A DNA stretch of 64,000 bases from Brachybacterium sp. YJGR34 (GTDB lineage Bacteria > Actinomycetota > Actinomycetes > Actinomycetales > Dermabacteraceae), in assembly GCF_003347015.1 (NCBI RefSeq), contig NZ_PNFB01000007.1, forward strand, positions 62,001 through 126,000, read 5' to 3'. The notes beneath the pieces are model-generated. The model saw only the letters and a program-made list of their open reading frames with translations. It was not told the origin of the DNA and did no database searches. Positions 35,501 through 46,364 of this stretch are shown here, in pieces. Position 1 is the stretch's first letter; every line of letters begins with the position of its first letter. The position numbers and the translations under genes were made by a program.

Positions 35501-36301
35501 TCAGATGCCGCGGGCGTCGTAGTCGACGTCCGTGACGAAGCGCTCGAACTCCTCGGCGCTGCCGTGCCAGCGCACCGAGTCCCCGGCGAAGGGGCCGTTG
35601 TCCGAGTACTGCCACAGCTCCCAGGCCCACCAGCGGCCCGGCATGGTGGTGGGGGTCTCGTGGTGGTAGGAGGCCAGGAACAGCGGGGAGTTCGGCGGCG
35701 TCCAGTCCCCCACCACGTCGTTCCACCAGTGGAGGTTGGTGTAGAGCACGGGGCGGCGGCCCACCTGGTCGCGGTAGCGGACGGAGAAGCCGTGGATCCA
35801 CTCCCGCATCTCCTGCTGGCTGAGGCCGTAGTCGCGGGGCAGCCCGTGGTAGCCCTCGAGGTCGACCATGCCCGGCAGCGTGATGCCGTCGGCGCTCCAG
35901 CCCCCGCCGTTGTTGAGGAAGAAGTCCACCTGCTCCTCGGGGCCGCCGGAATCGGGGCGGGCGAAGTGGTAGCCGCCGCGCACCAGGCCCGCGCCGCCGG
36001 CGCCGAGGTACTGGTGGTCGAAGGCGGGACTGCGGTAGGAGCGACCCTCGGTGGCCTTGACGTAGGCGAAGCGCGAGCCCATCTCGCGCTGGGCGGCCCA
36101 GTCCACCTCCCCCTGCCAGCCGGAGACGTCCTGGCCGAAGAAGCCGTCGGCCCGAGCGGCGGCGGGACCCAGTGCGGCGACGCCGGTGCCGAGGGCGGCC
36201 GCGCCCAGCACCCCTCCGCGCAGGAGGGAGCGGCGGGAGGCGCCGGTGGGCTCGGGGTCGGAGGAGGAGGGGGCGAGATGGCGGGGGCGATACGACGACA
36301 T
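35501..36301 (-). CDS. GH25 lysozyme-like muramidase with Tat signal
   Basis: 266 residues. The twin-arginine signal is in ASRRSLLRGGVLGAAALG (about 21-38), with a likely cleavage after AAARADG. A GH25 barrel follows: catalytic-region Asp58 (GQDVSGWQGEVDW), then D147 and E149 (MVDLEGYHGLP), and WELWQYSDNGPF near the C-terminus. It should be exported folded and cleave N-acetylmuramyl bonds of peptidoglycan for wall turnover or competition. No wall-binding repeats are present. AGGAGA precedes the chosen ATG. A strong hairpin follows the stop. Confidence 0.88.
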   Translation of the reverse strand: MSSYRPRHLAPSSSDPEPTGASRRSLLRGGVLGAAALGTGVAALGPAAARADGFFGQDVSGWQGEVDWAAQREMGSRFAYVKATEGRSYRSPAFDHQYLGAGGAGLVRGGYHFARPDSGGPEEQVDFFLNNGGGWSADGITLPGMVDLEGYHGLPRDYGLSQQEMREWIHGFSVRYRDQVGRRPVLYTNLHWWNDVVGDWTPPNSPLFLASYHHETPTTMPGRWWAWELWQYSDNGPFAGDSVRWHGSAEEFERFVTDVDYDARGI

Positions 36302-36425
36302 GGCGTCTCCTGGGGAAGAGGGGAAGCGAGGTGCGACAGGCATCACACCGGGGCCACCGTACGCAGATCACGCGCCTGAGATCTCCCTGGGCGCGAGGTC
36401 GGCGTGTCGCGGAGGCGCCCGGCCC

Positions 36426-37124
36426 TCACTCCTCGAGCGGGGCGACGAAGGCCTGCAGGGTCCCCAGGATGGTGGTCGCTGCCAGCTCGGTGATGTCGAT
36501 CTGGTCCATCTGCTCGCGCACCATGAGGTCGACGAAGATGCCCACCAGGAGCTGGGCGAGATCCTCGGGCGGGAGCAGGAGGCGACCTCCCTCGTCCTCG
36601 ACCCAGCCGGTCAGCAGGCGGCCGATCTCGTCCCGGAGGCGGCCGCGCTGCACGGCGAGCTCCGCCCGCATCTCCTCGTCGCGCAGCGACCGGGCGATCG
36701 CGTCGGAGTACAGGAGGTACCACTGCCGGCCGAAGGGGCGGATCCCCTCGAAGACGGCCACCATCACCGCGGCGTCGTCGAGCGCGTCGTCTGCGTTCGG
36801 CGAGGGCTCCACCTCCTGGTGGGCGCGGACGACCGATTCGTCGACGATGGCCAGCATCTGCTCCGTCACCGAGGCGAACAGCGCGGTGAACACCTCCTCC
36901 TTGCTGGAGAAGCTCGAGTAGAACGCACCGCGCGTGAACCCGGCGGCGCGGACCAGGTCGTCGACCGTGGCTCCGTCGATGCCCTTCTCCACGAAGACGT
37001 CGAGCGAGGCCCGCACGAGCTTGGTGCGGGTGTTCTCCCGGCGCCGCGTCCCGGCGGAGGCGGGCAGGGGCTCGAACAGCTCGGTCATGGGTCCTCGGAA
37101 CGGTCGGCGTGTGGTCTCGCTCAC
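36426..37124 (-). CDS. TetR-family transcriptional regulator
   Basis: 232 residues. N-terminal TetR HTH at about 30-75 (NTRTKLVRASLDVFVEKGID, ATVDDLVRAAGFTRGAFYSS, FSSKEEVFTALF), then an all-helical ligand domain. Residues near WYLLYSDAIARSLRDEEM are typical of regulators of lipid or drug exporters. The GTG start has GGGGGAGGG upstream; an ATG 12 codons in, with GAGGA, is the alternative. It is divergent from the MMPL/YhgE operon, with a perfect 7-6-7 inverted repeat in the gap, so it most likely represses that operon and itself. Confidence 0.9.
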   Translation of the reverse strand: MSETTRRPFRGPMTELFEPLPASAGTRRRENTRTKLVRASLDVFVEKGIDGATVDDLVRAAGFTRGAFYSSFSSKEEVFTALFASVTEQMLAIVDESVVRAHQEVEPSPNADDALDDAAVMVAVFEGIRPFGRQWYLLYSDAIARSLRDEEMRAELAVQRGRLRDEIGRLLTGWVEDEGGRLLLPPEDLAQLLVGIFVDLMVREQMDQIDITELAATTILGTLQAFVAPLEE

Positions 37125-37263: not shown

Positions 37264-40038
37264 GTGTCCTCGTCCCTGTATCGCCTCGGCCGTCGCATGG
37301 CCGCACTCCGCTGGAAGGTGGTCGCGGCCTGGCTCGCGCTGCTGGTCGCCATCGGCGTCCTCGCCGTCGGGCTCGGCGGGACCTTCTCCTCCGACATCGA
37401 GATCCCCGGCACCGAGGGCCAGCGCGGCATCGACACCCTCTCCCACCGCTTCCCGGAGATGGCCGGCACCTCAGGGCAGGTGGTCCTGGTCACCGAGGAC
37501 GGCACCACCGTCGACGAGCACCGGGACGAGATCGATCAGCTCATGGAGGAGATCGGCGAGGTGGAGGGGGTCGAGATCGCGACCTCCCCCTTCGACGACC
37601 TCTCCCCCGGCACCCGCAACGACGACGACACGGCGATCATCGCCCAGTTCCAGATGACGGGACAGCTGGGCCAGTACCCGCCCGAGTCCGTCGAGGAGAT
37701 CTCGGCGCTGGTCGATGACGCGGACACCGCTGCGCTCGAGGCCAGCATCGGCGGCCAGGTGCTCCAGTCCGCGGAGGTCCCCTTCGGCGCCGGTGAGGTG
37801 GTCGGCATCCTCGTCGCCCTGATCATCCTCGCGATCGTCTTCCGCTCCTTCGTCCCGGCCTTCATCCCGATCGTCACCGCCGTGGTGGGCGTGGGCGTCT
37901 CGATGCTCGCCGTCGTCGCGCTCTCGGCCGGGGTCGAGATCGCCTCGGTGACCACGGCGCTGGGGGCCATGCTGGGCCTCGCCGTCGGCATCGACTATGC
38001 GCTGTTCATCCTCTCGCGGCACCGGGACCAGCTCACGCGGGGCGACGACGTGCGCGAGTCCGTGGGCACCTCCCTGGCCACCTCCGGCAGCGCCGTCATC
38101 TTCGCCGGCATGACCGTGATCGTCGCCCTGGTGGGCCTGTTCGTCACGGGCATCCCGTTCCTCACCGTCATGGGCCTCGCCGCCGCCGCGACCGTCGGCC
38201 TGTCCGTGGTGGTCGCCCTGACCCTGCTGCCGGCGATCATGGGGATCCTCGGCGAGCGTCTGCGGCCGCGGCGGATCCGGCGCCTGATGGCCCAGAACGA
38301 CGGGGCGATGCCCACCGCGGAGGCAGATGGCGAGGCCACGACGTCCCGCCGCGGCCTCGGCCACCGCTGGGTCCGCCTGGTGACGAAGGTGCCGGCGGTG
38401 ACGATCCTCTTGGTCGTGCTCGGCGTGGGGGCGCTCGCGGTCCCGATCAAGGACCTCGAGCTCGCGCTGCCGGACCTGGGCACCGAGCCGGCGGGAACCG
38501 ATGCGCGCGAGACCTACGACCTCATCTCCGAGGAGTTCGGCGCCGGTTACAACGGTCCCCTGCTGGTGACCGCGGACATCATCAACACCACCGACCCGCT
38601 CGGCGTGGTGGACGAGCTCGAGACCGACATCGCCGCGCTCGATCACGTCGAGGAGATCCAGATCGCGACCCCCAACCGCGGGGCGGACATGGCCGTGGTC
38701 GCCGTCATCCCCGAGGGCGGTCCCACCGACCAGTCCACCAAGGATCTCGTGGCCGAGCTGCGCGGCAGCGCCGAGCAGTGGGAGGAGGAGCTGTCGATCT
38801 CGGACGTCACCGTCACCGGGGCGACCGCCGTCGGCATCGACGTCACGGACAAGCTCTCCGGTGCCCTGCTGCCCTTCGCGATCTTCGTCGTCGGCCTCTC
38901 GCTGATCCTGCTCGCCCTGGTGTTCCGCTCCGTCTGGGTGCCGATCAAGGCCTCGGTGGGCTATCTGTTCTCCGTGCTCGCCGCCTTCGGGGTCACGGCC
39001 ATGGTCTTCGAGTACGGCTGGTTCAACGACCTGCTGTTCGTCGACGTCAACGGACCGGTCGTCTCCTTCATGCCGATCATCGTCATGGGCGTGCTGTTCG
39101 GCCTGGCGATGGACTACGAGGTGTTCCTCGTCTCCCGCATGCGCGAGGAGTTCGTCCACACCGGTGACGCCCGCCGTTCGATCGAGCGCGGCTTCACCGC
39201 GAACGCTCCGGTGGTGACCGCTGCGGCCCTGATCATGGTCGCCGTCTTCGCGGGCTTCGTGACCACCGGCTGGTTCATGCTGCAGCCGATCGCCGTCGCG
39301 CTCGCCGTGGGCGTGCTGGTGGACGCCTTCGTGGTGCGCATGACGCTGGTGCCCGCCGTGCTGGCCCTGCTGGGGCGGCATGCGTGGTGGCTGCCGCGCT
39401 GGATGGACCGGGCGCTGCCCACCGTCGACGTCGAGGGCGAGGGCCTGGCCGCGGTTCTCGAGCACCGGCGCTGGACCGAGGAGCACGGCGACCACGCGCT
39501 CCGCCTCGAGGACACCGTGGCCCCGCTGCTCGGCGAGGAGGGACAGCTGGGCCCGCTGACCGGCTCCGTGCGCCCGGGCACCCTGCTGGTGGTCCGCGCC
39601 CCGGACCGCGCCGTCCGCGAGTCCTTCCTCGCGCTCGCCGCCGGCCGGCTGACGCCGAGTGCGGGGATCCTCGCCGTCCACGACCGTCTGGCGCCGGACG
39701 ACCTCGGTGCCGTCCAATCCCGGGCCCACTGGCTGGCCGCCGACCGGGACACCGCCGCCGCCCTGGCCCGGATCGACCGCCGACGCGCCGGCACCGCGGT
39801 GATCATCATCGAGCGGATCGACGACCTCGCCCCGATCGCGTCCTCGGCCGAGGACGAGACGCTCGGGCGCCTGGACGAGCTGCTGGAGGCGGGCGCCACG
39901 GTGGTCGTCGGCTCCCGCTCCGAGACACCCACCGACATCGAGCAGGCGCTGATGCACCGGCTCCGCGAGCCCGGCCGGCTGCTCGCCCTGTCCGTCCAGC
40001 GCTCCACCGACTCCGCCCCCGAAGGAGCTCTCGCATGA
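37264..40038 (+). CDS. MMPL-family transporter fused to a degenerate ABC-ATPase-like domain
   Basis: 924 residues. Residues 1-715 form a complete MMPL/RND transporter with about 12 spans (first helix near WKVVAAWLALLVAIGVLAVG; relay motifs GLAVGIDYALFILSRHRDQ and GLAMDYEVFLVSRMREE). Residues about 720-924 are an extra cytoplasmic domain whose order of elements mimics an ABC ATPase: VVRAPDRAVRESFLALAAGR sits where a P-loop and helix would be (from about 776), SAGILAVHD follows like the post-Walker strand, AVIIIERIDD (about 844) resembles Walker B, and GATVVVGSRSE the H-switch strand. The P-loop Gly/Lys/Ser are gone, so ATP hydrolysis is unlikely. GTG is used (GGAGGT 3 bases upstream); ATG 37297 is the alternative. 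The stop overlaps the YhgE-type start. Confidence 0.85.
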   Translation: MSSSLYRLGRRMAALRWKVVAAWLALLVAIGVLAVGLGGTFSSDIEIPGTEGQRGIDTLSHRFPEMAGTSGQVVLVTEDGTTVDEHRDEIDQLMEEIGEVEGVEIATSPFDDLSPGTRNDDDTAIIAQFQMTGQLGQYPPESVEEISALVDDADTAALEASIGGQVLQSAEVPFGAGEVVGILVALIILAIVFRSFVPAFIPIVTAVVGVGVSMLAVVALSAGVEIASVTTALGAMLGLAVGIDYALFILSRHRDQLTRGDDVRESVGTSLATSGSAVIFAGMTVIVALVGLFVTGIPFLTVMGLAAAATVGLSVVVALTLLPAIMGILGERLRPRRIRRLMAQNDGAMPTAEADGEATTSRRGLGHRWVRLVTKVPAVTILLVVLGVGALAVPIKDLELALPDLGTEPAGTDARETYDLISEEFGAGYNGPLLVTADIINTTDPLGVVDELETDIAALDHVEEIQIATPNRGADMAVVAVIPEGGPTDQSTKDLVAELRGSAEQWEEELSISDVTVTGATAVGIDVTDKLSGALLPFAIFVVGLSLILLALVFRSVWVPIKASVGYLFSVLAAFGVTAMVFEYGWFNDLLFVDVNGPVVSFMPIIVMGVLFGLAMDYEVFLVSRMREEFVHTGDARRSIERGFTANAPVVTAAALIMVAVFAGFVTTGWFMLQPIAVALAVGVLVDAFVVRMTLVPAVLALLGRHAWWLPRWMDRALPTVDVEGEGLAAVLEHRRWTEEHGDHALRLEDTVAPLLGEEGQLGPLTGSVRPGTLLVVRAPDRAVRESFLALAAGRLTPSAGILAVHDRLAPDDLGAVQSRAHWLAADRDTAAALARIDRRRAGTAVIIIERIDDLAPIASSAEDETLGRLDELLEAGATVVVGSRSETPTDIEQALMHRLREPGRLLALSVQRSTDSAPEGALA

Positions 40039-42830
40039 ACCGCCTGCTGCACCCCCGCACCCTGGTCATCGTCCTGCTGCTGCCGCTGTTCGTCGCCGGG
40101 GCAGGCCTGTGGGCGCTGAGCGGCCGGGTGGATCGGCTGGACACCGTGCCCGCCGCGGTCGTGAACCTCGACGCCGGCGCCGAGATCGAGGACGAGAACG
40201 GTGAGGTGCAGGAGGTGCCCTTCGGGCGCCTGCTGGCCGGCGCCCTCACCCAGCCCGGCACCGTCGAGGGACAGGACGCCCCGGAGACCTCCGGCTTCGA
40301 CTGGCAGCTGACCACCGAGGAGGACGCGGAGGAGGGCCTGACCGACGGCAGCTACGCCGCCGTGGTGGTGATCCCCGAGGACTTCTCCGCGCAGCTGGCC
40401 ACGATCGGCACCCCGGAGGCCAGCCAGGCGATCCTCGAGGTCACCACCAACGACGCCGCCGGACAGATCAACGCCCTGGTGGGCACCGCGGTCGCCGACG
40501 CCTCCGCCTCCACCATGGGCGGGCAGATGGCCCAGCAGTACCTCGACGGCCTCTACCTCGGCTTCAACGAGCTCGGCGAGGGCTTCGGGGAGGCCGCGGA
40601 CGGCGCCGAGGAGCTCGCCGGCGGCACCTCCGATTTCACCGAGGGCACCCGTGAGCTCGCCGACGGCACCGAGGAGCTCGCCGAGGGCGCGACCGCGGCG
40701 GCCGTGGGGACCACGGAGTTCTCCGGCGGGGTGTGGTCCCTCGCCGACGGCACCTGGCAGAGCGCCGACGGCAGCCGTCAGCTCGCCGACGGCCTCGGCG
40801 AGCTCGCCACCGGCTCCGAGGACGCCGCGAGCGGCGGCACCGAACTGGCCGAGGGCCTCGATGACCTCGCCACGGGCACCGAGGACCTCGCCGAGGGCGT
40901 GACGGGACTGCAGGCCGGGATGAACGGGACCGCGGACGAGCCCGGCCTCCTCGACGGCGCGAACCAGCTCGCCGCCGGGGTGGAGGGCGACGGCACCGCC
41001 GAGAACCCGGGCCTCGAGACCGGCGCCGAGCAGCTCGCCACGGGCCTCGAGCAGGTCGCCGGCGGTGTCGCCCAGACCGGCACCGCGGTCTCCGGCGACG
41101 GCACGGCGGAGAACCCGGGGCTGGTCCCCACCGCGCAGTCGGTCGCCGAGGGCACCGCGGAGCTCGGCGAGGGCGCCCAGCAGGCCGCCGACGGCCTGCA
41201 GGGCACCGCGGACCAGCCGGGCCTGGCCCAGGGCGCCGAGGGGGTCGTCGCCTACGGCGAGGGCCTGCGCACCGTCATGGACGGCGACGGCACCGCGGAG
41301 AACCCCGGCATGGCCGAGCTCGCGGCGCAGATGGACACCACGGCCGACGCGATGCTCGCGGAGGATCCCGAGGACCCGAACGCCCAGGCGATGAAGCAGC
41401 AGGCCCAGGGCATGCTCGGCTACGTCGACGGCGTGGGCACCGTGCTGGACGGCGACGGCACCGCCGCGGATCCCGGGCTGCTCGCGACCGCTCAGGGCGT
41501 GGGCGAGGGCGCGACCGCCGCCGCGGACGGCGTCCAGCAGGTCGCCGACGGGATCAACGGCACCGAGGAGCAGCCCGGGCTCGTCCAGGGCACCCAGGGC
41601 GTCCTCACCTACGCCGAGGGGGTCGAGACCGCCTTCGCCGGTGACGGCACCGCGGCGAACCCGGGCCTGGTGAGCTCCACCGAGCAGCTCGCCGCCGGGG
41701 CGCGCACCAGCGCCGAGGGCACCGGGGAGCTCGTCACCGGGGTGACCTCCCTACGCGACGGCCTGGTCCAGTACGGCCAGGGGGTGGACCAGCTCGCCGA
41801 GGGCGCCGAGGAGCTGGCCGGCGGCGCGCGCACCAGCGCGGACGGCGCCGGGGAGCTCGCCACCGGGCTCGACGACCTCGCCACCGGCACCCGCACCAGC
41901 GCCGAGGGCGCCGGACAGCTCGCCGACGGCTCCGAGGAGCTCGCCACCGGCGCGGACCAGCTCGGCACCGGTGCGGACCAGCTGGCCGAAGGCAGCGAGC
42001 AGCTGGCCGACGGGACCGGGGAGCTGGCCGAGGGCAGCGGCGAGCTGGCCGACGGCACGGACGAGCTCTCCGAGGGCACCGAGGAGCTGGCGAGCGGTCT
42101 GCGCGAGGGCGCCGACGGGGTCCCCAGCTACTCCGAGGACGAGCGCACGCGCATGGGCGAGATGGCGTCCTCCCCGGTGGGGACCGACGCGACCCGGCAG
42201 AACGAGGCCGCCGGCGCGGACACGGCGACCTTCCCCTTCGTCACGGGGCTCGCGCTGTGGCTGGGCGCCTTCGCGACCTTCCTGCTGCTGCCGGCGCTGT
42301 CCCGGCGCCTGCTGGACCAGGCGGTGCCCATGTGGCAGGTGGTGCTGCGATCGCTGGCCCCGGCGCTGCTGATCGCCGTGGCCCAGACCATCGCCGTGCT
42401 CGCGGTGCTCACCGGGGTGGGCATCTCACCCGTCTCGCCGCTCGCGGTGGGAGTGGTGGCGCTCGCCGGGGCGGCCATGTTCACGGTGCTCCATCAGAGC
42501 CTGCTGGTCCTGCTGGGGGCGCGCATCGGGCGCATCGCCTCGATCGTGCTGATGGTGCTGCAGGTGGTGACCCTGGTGGGCATCCTCCCGGTGCAGACGG
42601 CGCCGCCGCTGCTGCAGTCGATCGGCTCGCTGATGCCGCTGTCGATCGTCACCGAGGGCCTGGTGCACGCCTCCCTCGGCGGCTCGCTGGTGAGCACCTC
42701 GGGCACGCTGATGGCGATCCTCGCCTGGGCCGCTCTCGCGCTGCTGGTGACCCTCGCGGCCTCGCGCGGCGCCCGCCGCGCCGACCGTTCGGAGTGGGTG
42801 AGCGCGGCCGCCCTGCCGGTCGGCGCCTGA
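40035..42830 (+). CDS. giant YhgE/Pip-family membrane protein with heptad-repeat stalk
   Basis: 931 residues, ABC-2-related. One N-terminal span (about 12-32), a YhgE/Pip extracytoplasmic domain to about 170 (VNLDAGAEIEDENG, DGSYAAVVVIPEDFSAQL), a stalk of about 530 residues built on 7-residue units like ELADGTEELAEG, then about six C-terminal spans (735-910) as in ABC-2 permeases. Eight inserts of the type GDGTAENPGL interrupt the stalk. YhgE/Pip proteins include phage-infection receptors and lipid or secretion-linked exporters (ESX/YueB-like). Coupled by ATGA to the MMPL gene, it may pair with that protein's ATPase-like domain (inference). Confidence 0.87.
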   Translation: MNRLLHPRTLVIVLLLPLFVAGAGLWALSGRVDRLDTVPAAVVNLDAGAEIEDENGEVQEVPFGRLLAGALTQPGTVEGQDAPETSGFDWQLTTEEDAEEGLTDGSYAAVVVIPEDFSAQLATIGTPEASQAILEVTTNDAAGQINALVGTAVADASASTMGGQMAQQYLDGLYLGFNELGEGFGEAADGAEELAGGTSDFTEGTRELADGTEELAEGATAAAVGTTEFSGGVWSLADGTWQSADGSRQLADGLGELATGSEDAASGGTELAEGLDDLATGTEDLAEGVTGLQAGMNGTADEPGLLDGANQLAAGVEGDGTAENPGLETGAEQLATGLEQVAGGVAQTGTAVSGDGTAENPGLVPTAQSVAEGTAELGEGAQQAADGLQGTADQPGLAQGAEGVVAYGEGLRTVMDGDGTAENPGMAELAAQMDTTADAMLAEDPEDPNAQAMKQQAQGMLGYVDGVGTVLDGDGTAADPGLLATAQGVGEGATAAADGVQQVADGINGTEEQPGLVQGTQGVLTYAEGVETAFAGDGTAANPGLVSSTEQLAAGARTSAEGTGELVTGVTSLRDGLVQYGQGVDQLAEGAEELAGGARTSADGAGELATGLDDLATGTRTSAEGAGQLADGSEELATGADQLGTGADQLAEGSEQLADGTGELAEGSGELADGTDELSEGTEELASGLREGADGVPSYSEDERTRMGEMASSPVGTDATRQNEAAGADTATFPFVTGLALWLGAFATFLLLPALSRRLLDQAVPMWQVVLRSLAPALLIAVAQTIAVLAVLTGVGISPVSPLAVGVVALAGAAMFTVLHQSLLVLLGARIGRIASIVLMVLQVVTLVGILPVQTAPPLLQSIGSLMPLSIVTEGLVHASLGGSLVSTSGTLMAILAWAALALLVTLAASRGARRADRSEWVSAAALPVGA
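40920..41670 (+). repeat. eight in-frame GDGTAENPGL-type inserts in the YhgE stalk
   Basis: Copies of (D/N)G(D)GT-x-x-x-PG-(L/M) begin near 40922, 40987, 41095, 41202, 41284, 41453, 41558 and 41641, spaced unevenly among the heptads. Five have the fuller form G-D-G-T-A-x-x-P-G. The spacing and protein frame show a coding repeat, not a CRISPR or satellite. Confidence 0.8.
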
Positions 42831-42938: not shown

Positions 42939-45900
42939 TCACCGGAAGTCCCGGGATCTGCCCGCCGCGGCCAGGTCCAGGGGCTCCACGTCGTCGGCCA
43001 CGAGGTTCACCGCCCCGGAGCGGTTCTCGACGATGCCGCGCAGCACCACGGCCCGGGCGGTGCGCAGCAGCGCGCGGTGCCGCACCCAGAAGCCCTGGGA
43101 GCAGACCACGTTGAGGATCCCGGTCTCGTCCTCGAGGCTGAGGAAGGTGACGTTCCCGGCGGTCGCCGGACGCTGGCGGTGGGTGATCACCCCGCCCACC
43201 CGGATCCGCGAGCCGTCCTCCGCCTCCCGGGTGCCGCCGATCGCCAGCACGGCCGCGGCCGTGAGCTGCTCGCGCACGAGCGCCATCGGATGCTCGTCCA
43301 GGGTGATGCCGGTGGCCCAGGCGTCGGCCGTGGCGAGCTCCGCATCGCTCATGCCCGGCAGCATCGGCGCCTGCGCCCCCACCGCGAGGTGGGCGAGAGT
43401 GCCCGGGGACTCCTGGGCGGCGGCGCCCGCGGCCCACAGCGCCTGCCGACGCGAGGAGGCGAGGGCGTCCAGCGCCCCGGCGGTCGCGAGCGCTTCGAGC
43501 TGGCGGGCGCTGAGGGCCACCCTCCGGGCCAGGTCCGTCACCGCGGAGAAGGGGCCGCCGCGCTCGCGCTCGGTGACGATCGCCTCCGCGGTCTCGGTGC
43601 TGATCGTGCGCACCTGGTCCAGGCCCAGCCGGATCGCCGGGCCGGCCGCGGCGGCCTCGCCCTGGATCTGTGCGCGCGGCGGGTCCACCCGGTAGCCGCG
43701 GTGGTCCGCGTCGGTCTCCAGGTCGGTGCGGGCGCCGCTGAGGAGCACGTCGGGCCCGCGGGTGAGGACTCCGTGCCGGCGGGCGTCCGCAACCAGCGAC
43801 TGCGGGGAGTAGAAGCCCATCGGCTGGGAGCGCAGCAGCGCCGCGGTGAACGCCGCCGGGTAGTGGCACTTGAGGTAGGAGCTCGCGTAGACCAGGTACG
43901 CGAAGGAGTAGGCGTGGGACTCGGGGAAGCCGTAGTTGGCGAAGGCCAGCAGCTTGCGGTGGACGGCCTCGGCGTCCTCGCCGGTGATGCCGTGCCGCGC
44001 CATCCCCGCGAAGAGGGCATCGGAGAGATCGAGCATCTTCTGGGTGGAGCGCTTGGAGCCCATCGCGCGGCGCAGCTGGTCGGCCTGGGCGGGGGTGAAG
44101 TCCGCGATGTCGACCACCATCTGCATCAGCTGCTCCTGGAACAGCGGGATGCCCAGGGTGCGGCGCAGGGACTTCTCCAGCCGCGGGTGCAGGACGGTGA
44201 CCTCCTCCTCGCCGCTGCGGCGACGGATGTAGGGGTGCACGGAGCCGCCCTGGATGGGCCCGGGGCGGATCAGCGCCACCTCCACCACCAGGTCGTAGAA
44301 CACGCGGGGCTTCAGCCGCGGCAGGGTCGAGATCTGCGCGCGCGATTCCACCTGGAACACGCCGATGCTGTCCCCGGCGCACAGCATGTCGTAGACCGCC
44401 TCGTCCTCCTGCGGCAGGGTGCGCAGCTCGAAGTGCTGGCCGTGGTGCTCGCCGACCAGACGCAGGGCGTGGTCCAGCGCGGTGAGCATCCCCAGGCCCA
44501 GCAGATCGAACTTGACCAGCCCGGCATCGGCGCAGTCGTCCTTGTCCCACTGCAGCACGCTGCGGTCCGCCATCGCCGCCCACTGCACGGGGCACACCTC
44601 GATCACCGGCCGGTCGCACAGCACCATCCCGCCGGAGTGGATGCCCAGGTGCCGCGGGGCGTCGCGCAGCTTCTGCGCGAGCTCCACGACGTCGGCGGGA
44701 ACGTCCGCCTCCGCGAGGGAGGAGAAGGAGCGCTCGATCCGCTGCGAGAAGGCGTCCTGCGCGCCGGTGTCGTAGCCGAGCGCCCGTGCGGCGTCGCGCA
44801 CGGCGAGCTTCGCCCGGTAGGTGATGACGTTGGCGACCTGCGCGGCGTTCTCCCGGCCGTAGCGCTCGTAGACGTGCTGGATGACCTCCTCGCGGCGGTC
44901 GGAGGCGATGTCGAGGTCGATGTCCGGCGGACCGTCCCGCTCCGGGGCGAGGAAGCGCTCGAAGAGCAGATGGTGGCCGACGGGCTCGACGGCGGTGATG
45001 CCCAGCGCGTAGCAGACGGCGCTGTTCGCGGCCGATCCCCGGCCCTGGGCGAGGATCCCCTCGCCCGCGCAGAAGTCGATGATCTCGTGGACGATGAGGA
45101 AGTAGCCGGGGAAGCGGAGGTCGGTGATGATGCGCAGCTCGTGGTCGATCTGCGCCCATGCTCCCGGCACGCGCTCCTCGGCGCCGGGCCCGGGCCGCGG
45201 GCCGTACCGCTCGCGGCCCTCGATCTCCACCAGCTCCCGCAGCCAGCTCGCCTCGTCGTGCCCGGCGGGTACCGGGAACGGGGGCAGGTCCGGGGCCAGC
45301 AGGCGCAGGTCCAGGGCGCAGTCCCGGCCCAGTCGGGACGCCTGCGCGATCGCGTCCGGGTAGCGGGGCAGCAGCTGGGCCATCTCCTCGCCGCTGCGCA
45401 GATGGGCCGGGCGGGAGGAGAGGTGGGGATCGGCCTGGGCGAGCGGCACCCCGGCGCGCAGCGCGGCGTGGGTGTCGGCCAGGCGCTTGTCCGCCGGGCG
45501 CGCATAGTGGGCGTTGGTCGTGGCCACGAGCGGCAGGGTGACCGTATCGAGGCCGTGCGCCTCCCGCACCAGGCGCGCGCCCTGGGCGAGGGCGTCGTGG
45601 AGCTCGTCGGCCTCTCCCCCGCCGCCGGCGACCAGCTCGACGGCGACGTTCCCGGCGCCGAACAGGTCCAGCAGGCGGGCGATGGCGCCGGCCGCGGCGT
45701 GGGCGGCGGCCTCGAGGTCCCCGGTCTCCAGGTGCGGCGCGGCCGCACGGGTCACGGCGCCCTTGCGGCAGCCGGTGAGGATCTGCCAGCCCCCCTCGCG
45801 GGCGAGGCGGGCCAGCTCCGCGAGCCGGTAGCGCGGCACGGCCTTCTGCCCGCTGTCGAGGTGGGCGCGGGCGATCGCGGCCGAGAGCCGGCGGTACCCG

Positions 45901-46364
45901 GGGGTGTCGCGCACGAGCACCAGCAGGTGCTCGCCGTCCGGATCGGGGAGGCCGGTGCGGGGCGCGGAGATCACCGGCGTGGTGCCCGCGGCCTGCGCGC
46001 CGGGCTCGAGCCCCAGGGTCAGCTCGGCGCCGAACACGGTGGCCACGCCCTGCGCCGCGGCGGCGCTCGCGAAGCGCACCGCCCCGGGCAGGCCGTCGTG
46101 GTCCACGAGCGCGATCGCCTCCAGCCCCAGCCGGGCGGCCTGCGCGGCCATGTCCTCGGGGCTCGAGGCGCCGTCGAGAAAGCTGAAGTGGGAGTGGGCG
46201 TGCAGCTCCGCGTACCCGACGGCGCGCTCGGGCCGGTAGGGGTCCTCGGCGACCGTCCCCGTGTGCTCGACGACGATCGGCGGGGAGACCAGCTCGGCCG
46301 GACGGTCCGAGAGGATCGCCTCGAGGTCCTTCCAGGCGGGCGGGCCCAGGAACCAGCCGGCCAT
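42939..46364 (-). CDS. dnaE2: error-prone DNA polymerase III alpha subunit
   Basis: 1141 residues, the C-family polymerase of the SOS mutasome that copies past lesions with help from ImuA' and ImuB. Order: PHP domain (AELHAHSHFSFLDGASSPED near residue 32), palm with catalytic aspartates in PPDIDLDIASDRREE, helix-hairpin region, then an OB fold near the C-terminus (GNVTFLSLEDETGILNVV). It lacks the longer C-terminal tau-binding part of DnaE1. The ATG lies 24 bases after the ImuB stop, so it is third in the imuA'-imuB-dnaE2 operon driven from the SOS box at 49000. Confidence 0.95.
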   Translation of the reverse strand: MAGWFLGPPAWKDLEAILSDRPAELVSPPIVVEHTGTVAEDPYRPERAVGYAELHAHSHFSFLDGASSPEDMAAQAARLGLEAIALVDHDGLPGAVRFASAAAAQGVATVFGAELTLGLEPGAQAAGTTPVISAPRTGLPDPDGEHLLVLVRDTPGYRRLSAAIARAHLDSGQKAVPRYRLAELARLAREGGWQILTGCRKGAVTRAAAPHLETGDLEAAAHAAAGAIARLLDLFGAGNVAVELVAGGGGEADELHDALAQGARLVREAHGLDTVTLPLVATTNAHYARPADKRLADTHAALRAGVPLAQADPHLSSRPAHLRSGEEMAQLLPRYPDAIAQASRLGRDCALDLRLLAPDLPPFPVPAGHDEASWLRELVEIEGRERYGPRPGPGAEERVPGAWAQIDHELRIITDLRFPGYFLIVHEIIDFCAGEGILAQGRGSAANSAVCYALGITAVEPVGHHLLFERFLAPERDGPPDIDLDIASDRREEVIQHVYERYGRENAAQVANVITYRAKLAVRDAARALGYDTGAQDAFSQRIERSFSSLAEADVPADVVELAQKLRDAPRHLGIHSGGMVLCDRPVIEVCPVQWAAMADRSVLQWDKDDCADAGLVKFDLLGLGMLTALDHALRLVGEHHGQHFELRTLPQEDEAVYDMLCAGDSIGVFQVESRAQISTLPRLKPRVFYDLVVEVALIRPGPIQGGSVHPYIRRRSGEEEVTVLHPRLEKSLRRTLGIPLFQEQLMQMVVDIADFTPAQADQLRRAMGSKRSTQKMLDLSDALFAGMARHGITGEDAEAVHRKLLAFANYGFPESHAYSFAYLVYASSYLKCHYPAAFTAALLRSQPMGFYSPQSLVADARRHGVLTRGPDVLLSGARTDLETDADHRGYRVDPPRAQIQGEAAAAGPAIRLGLDQVRTISTETAEAIVTERERGGPFSAVTDLARRVALSARQLEALATAGALDALASSRRQALWAAGAAAQESPGTLAHLAVGAQAPMLPGMSDAELATADAWATGITLDEHPMALVREQLTAAAVLAIGGTREAEDGSRIRVGGVITHRQRPATAGNVTFLSLEDETGILNVVCSQGFWVRHRALLRTARAVVLRGIVENRSGAVNLVADDVEPLDLAAAGRSRDFR

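Follow-up and report, generated by a model that had tools for sequence, protein, structure and literature searches.

What would an ATPase domain without its catalytic motifs be doing at the end of a pump of another family, next to a gene for a YhgE/Pip-type membrane protein? The question is raised by a locus of Brachybacterium sp. YJGR34 within a 64,000-nucleotide stretch of DNA, here called the window (contig NZ_PNFB01000007.1 of NCBI RefSeq assembly GCF_003347015.1, positions 62,001 to 126,000 of the forward strand). An earlier note, made from the letters alone, had read the gene as a resistance-nodulation-division (RND)/MMPL transporter fused to a decayed ATP-binding cassette (ABC) ATPase domain and coupled to a YhgE gene. 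The identity of this C-terminal domain (CTD) as an ABC nucleotide-binding domain (NBD) is firm on family profiles and a predicted fold, and MMPL relatives with such a tail almost invariably have a YhgE gene next to them. The parts of the locus, in window coordinates, are as follows.

37264 to 40038, plus strand: MMPL/RND protein of 924 residues ending in a dead ABC domain, presumed GTG start, stop codon at 40036-40038
37264 to 39411, plus strand: RND core, best PDB match MmpL3 (7nvh, E 1.2e-43)
37975 to 38010, plus strand: GLAVGIDYALFI, Asp-Tyr pair, aligned with a pair of MmpL3 (7nvh)
39100 to 39141, plus strand: GLAMDYEVFLVSRM, second Asp-Tyr pair, aligned with a pair of MmpL3 (7nvh)
39421 to 40035, plus strand: dead ABC NBD (CTD), 205 residues (720-924), assigned by profile and predicted fold
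40035 to 40038, plus strand: ATGA, YhgE start overlapping the MMPL stop, read at the locus
40035 to 42830, plus strand: YhgE/Pip-type membrane protein, 931 residues, ABC-2-type ends flanking a heptad-repeat middle

A dead ABC domain on an RND pump

Residues 1-715 form an ordinary RND protein, matching PF03176 with 291 bits (cut-off 20.5; E 1e-86) in two stretches that span both halves, and the Asp-Tyr pairs in GLAVGIDYALFI and GLAMDYEVFLVSRM are presumably the proton relay of transmembrane helices 4 and 10 (TM4 and TM10) of MmpL3-type pumps. The score far over the cut-off and the match of both pairs to MmpL3 bear out the pump part of the earlier description, and the ATGA said to couple the two genes is present at 40035-40038. 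The domain does lie in the span originally given for it, 39420-40038, but position 39420 is out of frame by one base, residues 720-924 being encoded by 39421-40035.

The ABC-like character that had been claimed for the last 205 or so residues emerges from both profiles and structure. A CTD family profile (A1, 38 members) searched against the PDB has its best match to an ABC NBD (E 1.7e-4), and ABC-type ATPases make up 58 of the 60 best rows (E up to 0.82), the remaining two being a phosphonopyruvate hydrolase and a magnetosome protein. These matches mostly cover the stretch from ahead of the P-loop to the Q-loop; at the Walker-B end there are two weak matches, one to UvrA (E 0.016), the other to an ABC protein (E 0.73). 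Comparison with the profile of P-loop-bearing fused NBDs described below gives E 1.4e-11, a value helped by the MMPL linker common to both sides, and aligns RAPDRAVRES beneath HGPSGSGKTA. Without the linker, the CTD profile scores a median of 24.0 bits (best 36.1) against 30 YhgE-type NBDs, 29 of which lie above the best score (8.0 bits) of a control of 20 column-shuffled copies. The AlphaFold model of the CTD is compact, with the strand and helix order of an ABC domain (mean predicted local distance difference test, pLDDT, 88.7; predicted template modelling score, pTM, 0.86). Its best Foldseek match is FtsE (E 2.1e-7) and VIA-align gives Z 12.8 over 162 residues at a root-mean-square deviation (rmsd) of 3.1; all 50 matches listed by each are ABC proteins, as judged by title or name. 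The predicted fold thus favours the earlier note. Against this identity, the window CTD alone has no ABC match in Pfam, and scans of the 38 family members singly gave scattered weak matches with no ABC_tran among the 25 families listed. The best Pfam match of the window CTD, PEP_mutase (E 0.001, below the cut-off), was set aside because the fold is that of an ABC domain.

The motifs and conserved stretches of the domain are located as follows.

39421 to 39486, plus strand: linker helix TVDVEGEGLAAVLEHRRWTEEH, best-conserved CTD stretch in the family alignment
39595 to 39624, plus strand: Walker A equivalent RAPDRAVRES, motif Gly and Lys missing, not specially conserved in the family
39679 to 39717, plus strand: HDRLAPDDLGAVQ, conserved in the family alignment, ahead of the Q-loop place
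39796 to 39825, plus strand: Walker B equivalent AVIIIERIDD, Asp replaced by Glu and Arg at the catalytic place relative to VVVDDADD (read off alignments)
39898 to 39924, plus strand: H-switch strand TVVVGSRSE, without His

Where a Walker A motif (GxxGxGK[ST]) would stand the CTD reads RAPDRAVRES, and the loss of the catalytic P-loop reported earlier is confirmed. IIIERIDD and VVVGSRSE, previously named as Walker-B-like and H-switch-like, do occupy those places (inside 39796-39825 and 39898-39924), without the catalytic Glu and the H-switch His. There is no LSGGQ signature: the Q-loop place and the Walker-B-like strand lie no more than about 20-25 residues apart, so that the helical subdomain which would carry it is gone. 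On these motifs a diverged but still active ATPase was rejected.

Within the CTD family the P-loop place is of average conservation (8-mer rank 87 of 190 windows), and conservation is high in the linker helix and in HDRLAPDD; the DVEGE-like beginning of the linker helix occurs in tail-less MMPL proteins too. The ratio of nonsynonymous to synonymous substitution rates (dN/dS) of the CTD is 0.17, 0.17, 0.27 and 0.37 in the four least diverged pairs and that of the core in those pairs is 0.07, 0.06, 0.17 and 0.26, figures confined to these four out of 40 listed of 210 pairs because dS plateaus near 0.5 in GC-rich genes. The CTD is relaxed relative to the core yet constrained.

The YhgE partner and the spread of the pair

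The pairing of the two genes recurs in other genomes, as the proposal of one composite machine had implied. Among 105 loci, a YhgE gene lies downstream of 82 of the 84 tailed MMPL genes (C-terminal tail of at least 180 residues) and of none of the 21 tail-less ones, two of which (L157 and L198) are too near a contig end to reveal a downstream gene. The two tailed exceptions are explained by a contig end and by a frameshift into YhgE. Linker-free profiles, built in part from the tested tails (family rows and 8 rows of A2), recognise 83 of the 84 tails as NBDs (E < 1e-3), missing only the frameshifted L152, and do not recognise any short tail; L162, whose 161-residue tail is not recognised (E 0.12), was counted as tail-less. 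ATGA or GTGA occurs at the MMPL stop in 57 of 82 related loci. Since most tailed loci came from tail queries, these counts show that tails accompany YhgE, and not how frequent tails are.

Of 47 genomes in the window's family, 42 carry the CTD (36 of 38 from the genus itself, 6 of 9 from other genera), with no internal stop in any listed match and with the order TetR, MMPL-CTD, YhgE in all 20 family loci that were read. In genome G030 the match is split over two contigs. Two broken copies were also seen: in G027 the match (C1:1758964-1759577) is split across two frames, and in L152 (G267) the MMPL gene is frameshifted in the tail and reads into the YhgE region. Across the order, 159 of the 297 genomes searched have matches, many of which are in short frames the size of ordinary ABC ATPases. 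All 29 long-frame matches read are MMPL fusions, accompanied by YhgE in 28 (the other at a contig end) and by TetR in 21. Fusion carriers include Aeromicrobium, Rathayibacter, Mycetocola, Brevibacterium, Microbacterium, Frigoribacterium, Promicromonospora, Saccharopolyspora, Aurantimicrobium, Tessaracoccus and Leucobacter.

YhgE/Pip proteins are known mainly as phage receptors and through a secretion-system relative. The window YhgE matches ABC2_membrane_3 (E 2.6e-19), TIGR03057 (heptads) and, weakly, EsaA, and as a protein falls just short of the cut-offs of TIGR03061 (94.1 bits, cut-off 96.15) and TIGR03062 (100.0 bits, cut-off 102.2); in the genome search it passes the latter with 104.4 bits. 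Its fold was approached through a homologue from Aurantimicrobium (L173, 555 residues), picked for its short ectodomain and 29% identical to the window YhgE, which was modelled with AlphaFold from a 32-row alignment (pLDDT 82.3, pTM 0.64). Type V ABC exporters begin with TM1, an ectodomain and TM2, which are followed by the coupling helix, TM3-5, re-entrant helices and TM6. The homologue model, with TM labels assigned by reading, has this membrane layout: strands and long helices make up the ectodomain between TM1 and TM2, one short helix lies between TM2 and TM3, and two short helices lie between TM5 and TM6. VIA-align places ABCG5/G8 best (Z 18.1, 226 aligned residues, rmsd 4.0), a value exceeding the Z of 14 that mostly helical models can reach by common arrangement, and the aligned span, residues 14-545, reaches both chain ends. 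Every one of the 50 matches listed is an ABC transporter; almost all belong to ABCG, and ABCA1, ABCH and fungal Pdr5/Cdr1 also appear. The ABC2_membrane_3 match and this homologue fold support the description of YhgE as ABC-2-like and suggest that YhgE/Pip proteins are membrane parts of ABC-type exporters. According to one paper, the PIP family stands close to the ABC-2 superfamily (PMC3924187).

A second YhgE of the window genome, on contig C11 (L270:5843-8956, minus strand, 1037 residues), has a higher TIGR03062 score (184.8 bits) than the window YhgE. A third TIGR03062 match (26.9 bits, below the cut-off) was rejected, since the frames there read as an ABC-2-type permease with a canonical ABC ATPase as its neighbour.

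Less decayed copies and the probable origin of the fusion

A class-wide search with the MMPL core, from which 20 loci were read, brought up P-loop-bearing orthologues. A Walker A with GK[ST] is kept in 9 of 83 aligned fused tails. In group f45 it reads GPSGSGKT in four members and GSDGAGKT in a fifth; two members of f35 have GPPGTGKT, a member of f57 has GPPHSGKT, and Aeromicrobium sp. Root495 (L163) has GPSGSGKT. The Rathayibacter tail has the in-between GPHRSGRT. The ABC_tran cut-off (25 bits) is passed by seven of the eight P-loop-bearing tails scanned (L148 lay outside the scan), namely L149 (57 bits), L146 (51), L160 (46), L161 (46), L163 (43), L145 (36) and L144 (28), with L143 below it at 18. 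All nine lack a canonical signature, and at Walker B they mostly read VVVDDADD, with Asp replacing the catalytic Glu.

When 394 genomes were searched with the P-loop-bearing profile, stand-alone proteins ranked below the best fused ones and intermixed with the decayed fused ones. The 22 stand-alone ABC-like relatives read are frames of 239-382 residues scoring 99.7 to 163 bits, on a scale that grades without a clean gap into ordinary ABC ATPases; in the window genome every other match to this profile is at or below 42 bits. A YhgE gene adjoins the stand-alone NBD in all 20 chosen loci, a set deliberately spread over families and not random. Because these closest unfused relatives adjoin YhgE, the fused NBD can be regarded as kin of YhgE's own partner, and the fusion looks like the capture of that partner. 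In the stand-alone YhgE-linked NBDs (L237-L256) the Walker A Lys is replaced by Arg in 19 of 22 and kept in three, and L237 and L242 carry two NBD-YhgE pairs in tandem.

P-loop-bearing fused and stand-alone NBDs alike have no canonical signature or H-switch, and the catalytic Glu is nearly always absent. Because of this the ancestor itself may have been a protein that bound ATP but hydrolysed it poorly or not at all, and the phrase "ancestral ATPase" in the earlier note calls for caution.

Trees of the MMPL core under two models (103 of the 105 rows, L166 and L167 being left out for short cores, and 50 of those 103 rows for the mixture model) place a single change between fused and unfused, with support 98 in each, and in neither does a tail-less protein fall inside the fused group, although most loci were found with tail queries. 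If loss is irreversible, Walker A was lost five times; collapsing branches of support under 95 lowers the minimum to two losses, and collapsing at 80 or 90 lowers it to four. The starred branches require the decayed label to change twice or more in one tree and at least three times in the other. The frameshifted L152 has the decayed label in the 103-row tree and was excluded from the tail alignment (83 of 84). Tails of group f19 (L093, L097 and L098) are decayed, with a longer middle in which a signature-like stretch (in L093 VSALGAVDRTLVALAAALAEKP, spread across a gapped alignment) precedes a Walker-B-like strand; they look as if they represented an intermediate stage of decay.

A proposed role and its alternatives

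The reading that we favour, by a modest degree, is that an RND pump has been joined to the NBD of a YhgE-type exporter and that the dead NBD docks YhgE to the proton-driven pump. In an actinobacterial ancestor an RND (MMPL) pump would have gained, at its cytoplasmic end, the NBD of a YhgE-type, type V ABC exporter, and Walker A would then have been lost repeatedly with the domain retained. What sequence, models or trees bear out is that the CTD is an NBD akin to those encoded beside YhgE and almost constantly accompanied by YhgE, that Walker A was lost more than once while the domain stayed under constraint, and that the Asp-Tyr pairs of the RND half are conserved; the earlier note is to that extent supported, its scaffold being still a proposal. 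The NBD fold would dock on the coupling helix of YhgE and tie it to the RND pump. In the window lineage the proton gradient would power the pair through the MMPL half as sole motor, with the dead NBD as a clamp or coupling joint and the long heptad domain of YhgE reaching through the cell wall; lineages keeping Walker A may still use or sense ATP. We infer contact and coupling between the two proteins. Their cargo is probably hydrophobic, most likely a lipid or some similar compound, to judge from MmpL proteins and ABCG exporters, which carry lipids and sterols, and from one expression study of Saccharopolyspora hirsuta. There, cholesterol at 24 h induces two genes with neighbouring tags, annotated YhgE/Pip (3.82) and MMPL (3.33; F1721_04140) (PMC9782250, Table 2); in the accessible part of the study the authors draw no link between the two. 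A stronger version, possible but rather doubtful, is an ATP-free, proton-powered ABC exporter, in which the RND cycle would move the membrane part of the wall-spanning YhgE because the captured NBD, no longer binding ATP, stays as a mechanical joint. The survival of less worn fused copies in related bacteria suggests a machine put together from two unrelated transporter families.

Several observations weigh against this docking role. The helical subdomain normally contributes to the coupling-helix groove of ABC NBDs, and because the window CTD has none its docking could differ from that of an ABC transporter. Foldseek with the YhgE homologue model returned nothing below 1e-3 (its best match, at E 0.012, is to a putative ABC type-2 transporter domain), the ABCG likeness coming from VIA-align. 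In dN/dS the CTD exceeds the core by a factor of about 1.5 to 3. By reading, no ABC or MMPL gene is present among the frames beside the second YhgE, and YhgE therefore need not have an NBD.

The lone second YhgE would also suit an account in which the CTD serves the MMPL pump itself, in regulation or oligomerisation, and YhgE shares its operon and regulon for the same stress and works alone. That the best-conserved part of the CTD is the linker helix adjoining the RND core points the same way, but the NBD tail accompanies an adjacent YhgE (82 of 84 against 0 of 21) and the closest unfused relatives of the CTD are encoded beside YhgE; we consider this account unlikely, if worth keeping in mind. 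Another possibility is that the CTD is a relic under weak selection that is being lost and has no present role, as would befit a domain whose catalytic motifs are all gone, whose dN/dS is looser than that of the core, whose Walker A disappeared separately some five times if loss is irreversible, and which is broken in G027 (two frames) and L152 (frameshift). Such a relic is distinctly improbable for a domain found in 42 of 47 family genomes with no stop inside the listed matches, with dN/dS of 0.17 in the two closest pairs and a confident, compact AlphaFold model, and with no tail-less protein within the fused group of trees whose loci were mostly found with tail queries. It is also conceivable that the CTD binds a nucleotide or other ligand via an altered site and gates the pump, the P-loop-bearing copies being ATP sensors and not motors. 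The older role may have been sensing, since even GPSGSGKT copies are without canonical signature, catalytic Glu and H-switch, and the replacement of the Walker A Lys by Arg in 19 of 22 stand-alone relatives is in keeping with this; the average conservation of the P-loop place in the window's family (rank 87 of 190) speaks against a ligand site retained there, and we give this possibility little credence. Docking of YhgE through a dead NBD remains the reading preferred here.

Cooperation of RND and ABC proteins as such is already known. In a report on the Mycobacterium tuberculosis complex, MmpL7 (RND) and DrrABC (a type V ABC exporter) both serve export of phthiocerol dimycocerosate (PDIM), and DrrABC, a separate complex of three proteins, is reported on the evidence of mutants to be a real ABC transporter (PMC11539658). 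The likeness lies in an RND protein paired with a type V ABC exporter, in the present case by gene adjacency; the differences are a single dead NBD fused to the RND protein, and YhgE as the ABC-type membrane part. With MmpL3 and the MMPL family (PF03176) the window protein shares the RND core and both aligned Asp-Tyr pairs, and adds the C-terminal ABC-fold domain and the near-constant YhgE neighbour. The window YhgE resembles other YhgE/Pip proteins (TIGR03061, TIGR03062) in its N- and C-terminal domains, heptads and weak EsaA match, and differs in being coupled to an MMPL-NBD fusion. The membrane fold of its homologue resembles that of ABCG/ABCA type V exporters, whereas here the NBD is on another polypeptide, RND-fused and, to judge by its motifs, catalytically dead, and the ectodomain is very long. 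The stand-alone YhgE-linked ABC-like proteins of actinobacteria, the closest unfused NBD relatives found, also lie beside YhgE, but are not fused to MMPL and keep the helical-subdomain region. No description of an MMPL-ABC fusion was found in the literature searched, most subscription journals lying outside that search, and within this scope the earlier remark that no described system of this type was known holds.

RND and ABC proteins are unrelated families with different fuels, known to cooperate in the export of one lipid. A family with both on one polypeptide makes their coupling testable, and its P-loop-bearing, Arg-substituted and fully dead versions form a natural series on the role of an NBD after losing ATP.

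The genes flanking the pair are listed below.

36426 to 37124, minus strand: TetR-family regulator gene (TetR_N, E 3.4e-13), divergent, 139 bases from the MMPL start
35501 to 36346, minus strand: glycosyl hydrolase family 25 protein (E 1.5e-43), past the TetR gene
42939 to 46364, minus strand: convergent DNA polymerase III alpha-type gene (PHP, DNA_pol3_alpha, finger and OB domains in Pfam), probably for error-prone DnaE2

Long antisense frames across the MMPL gene, such as 37471-39957 on the minus strand, were set aside and are assumed to be due to high GC content.

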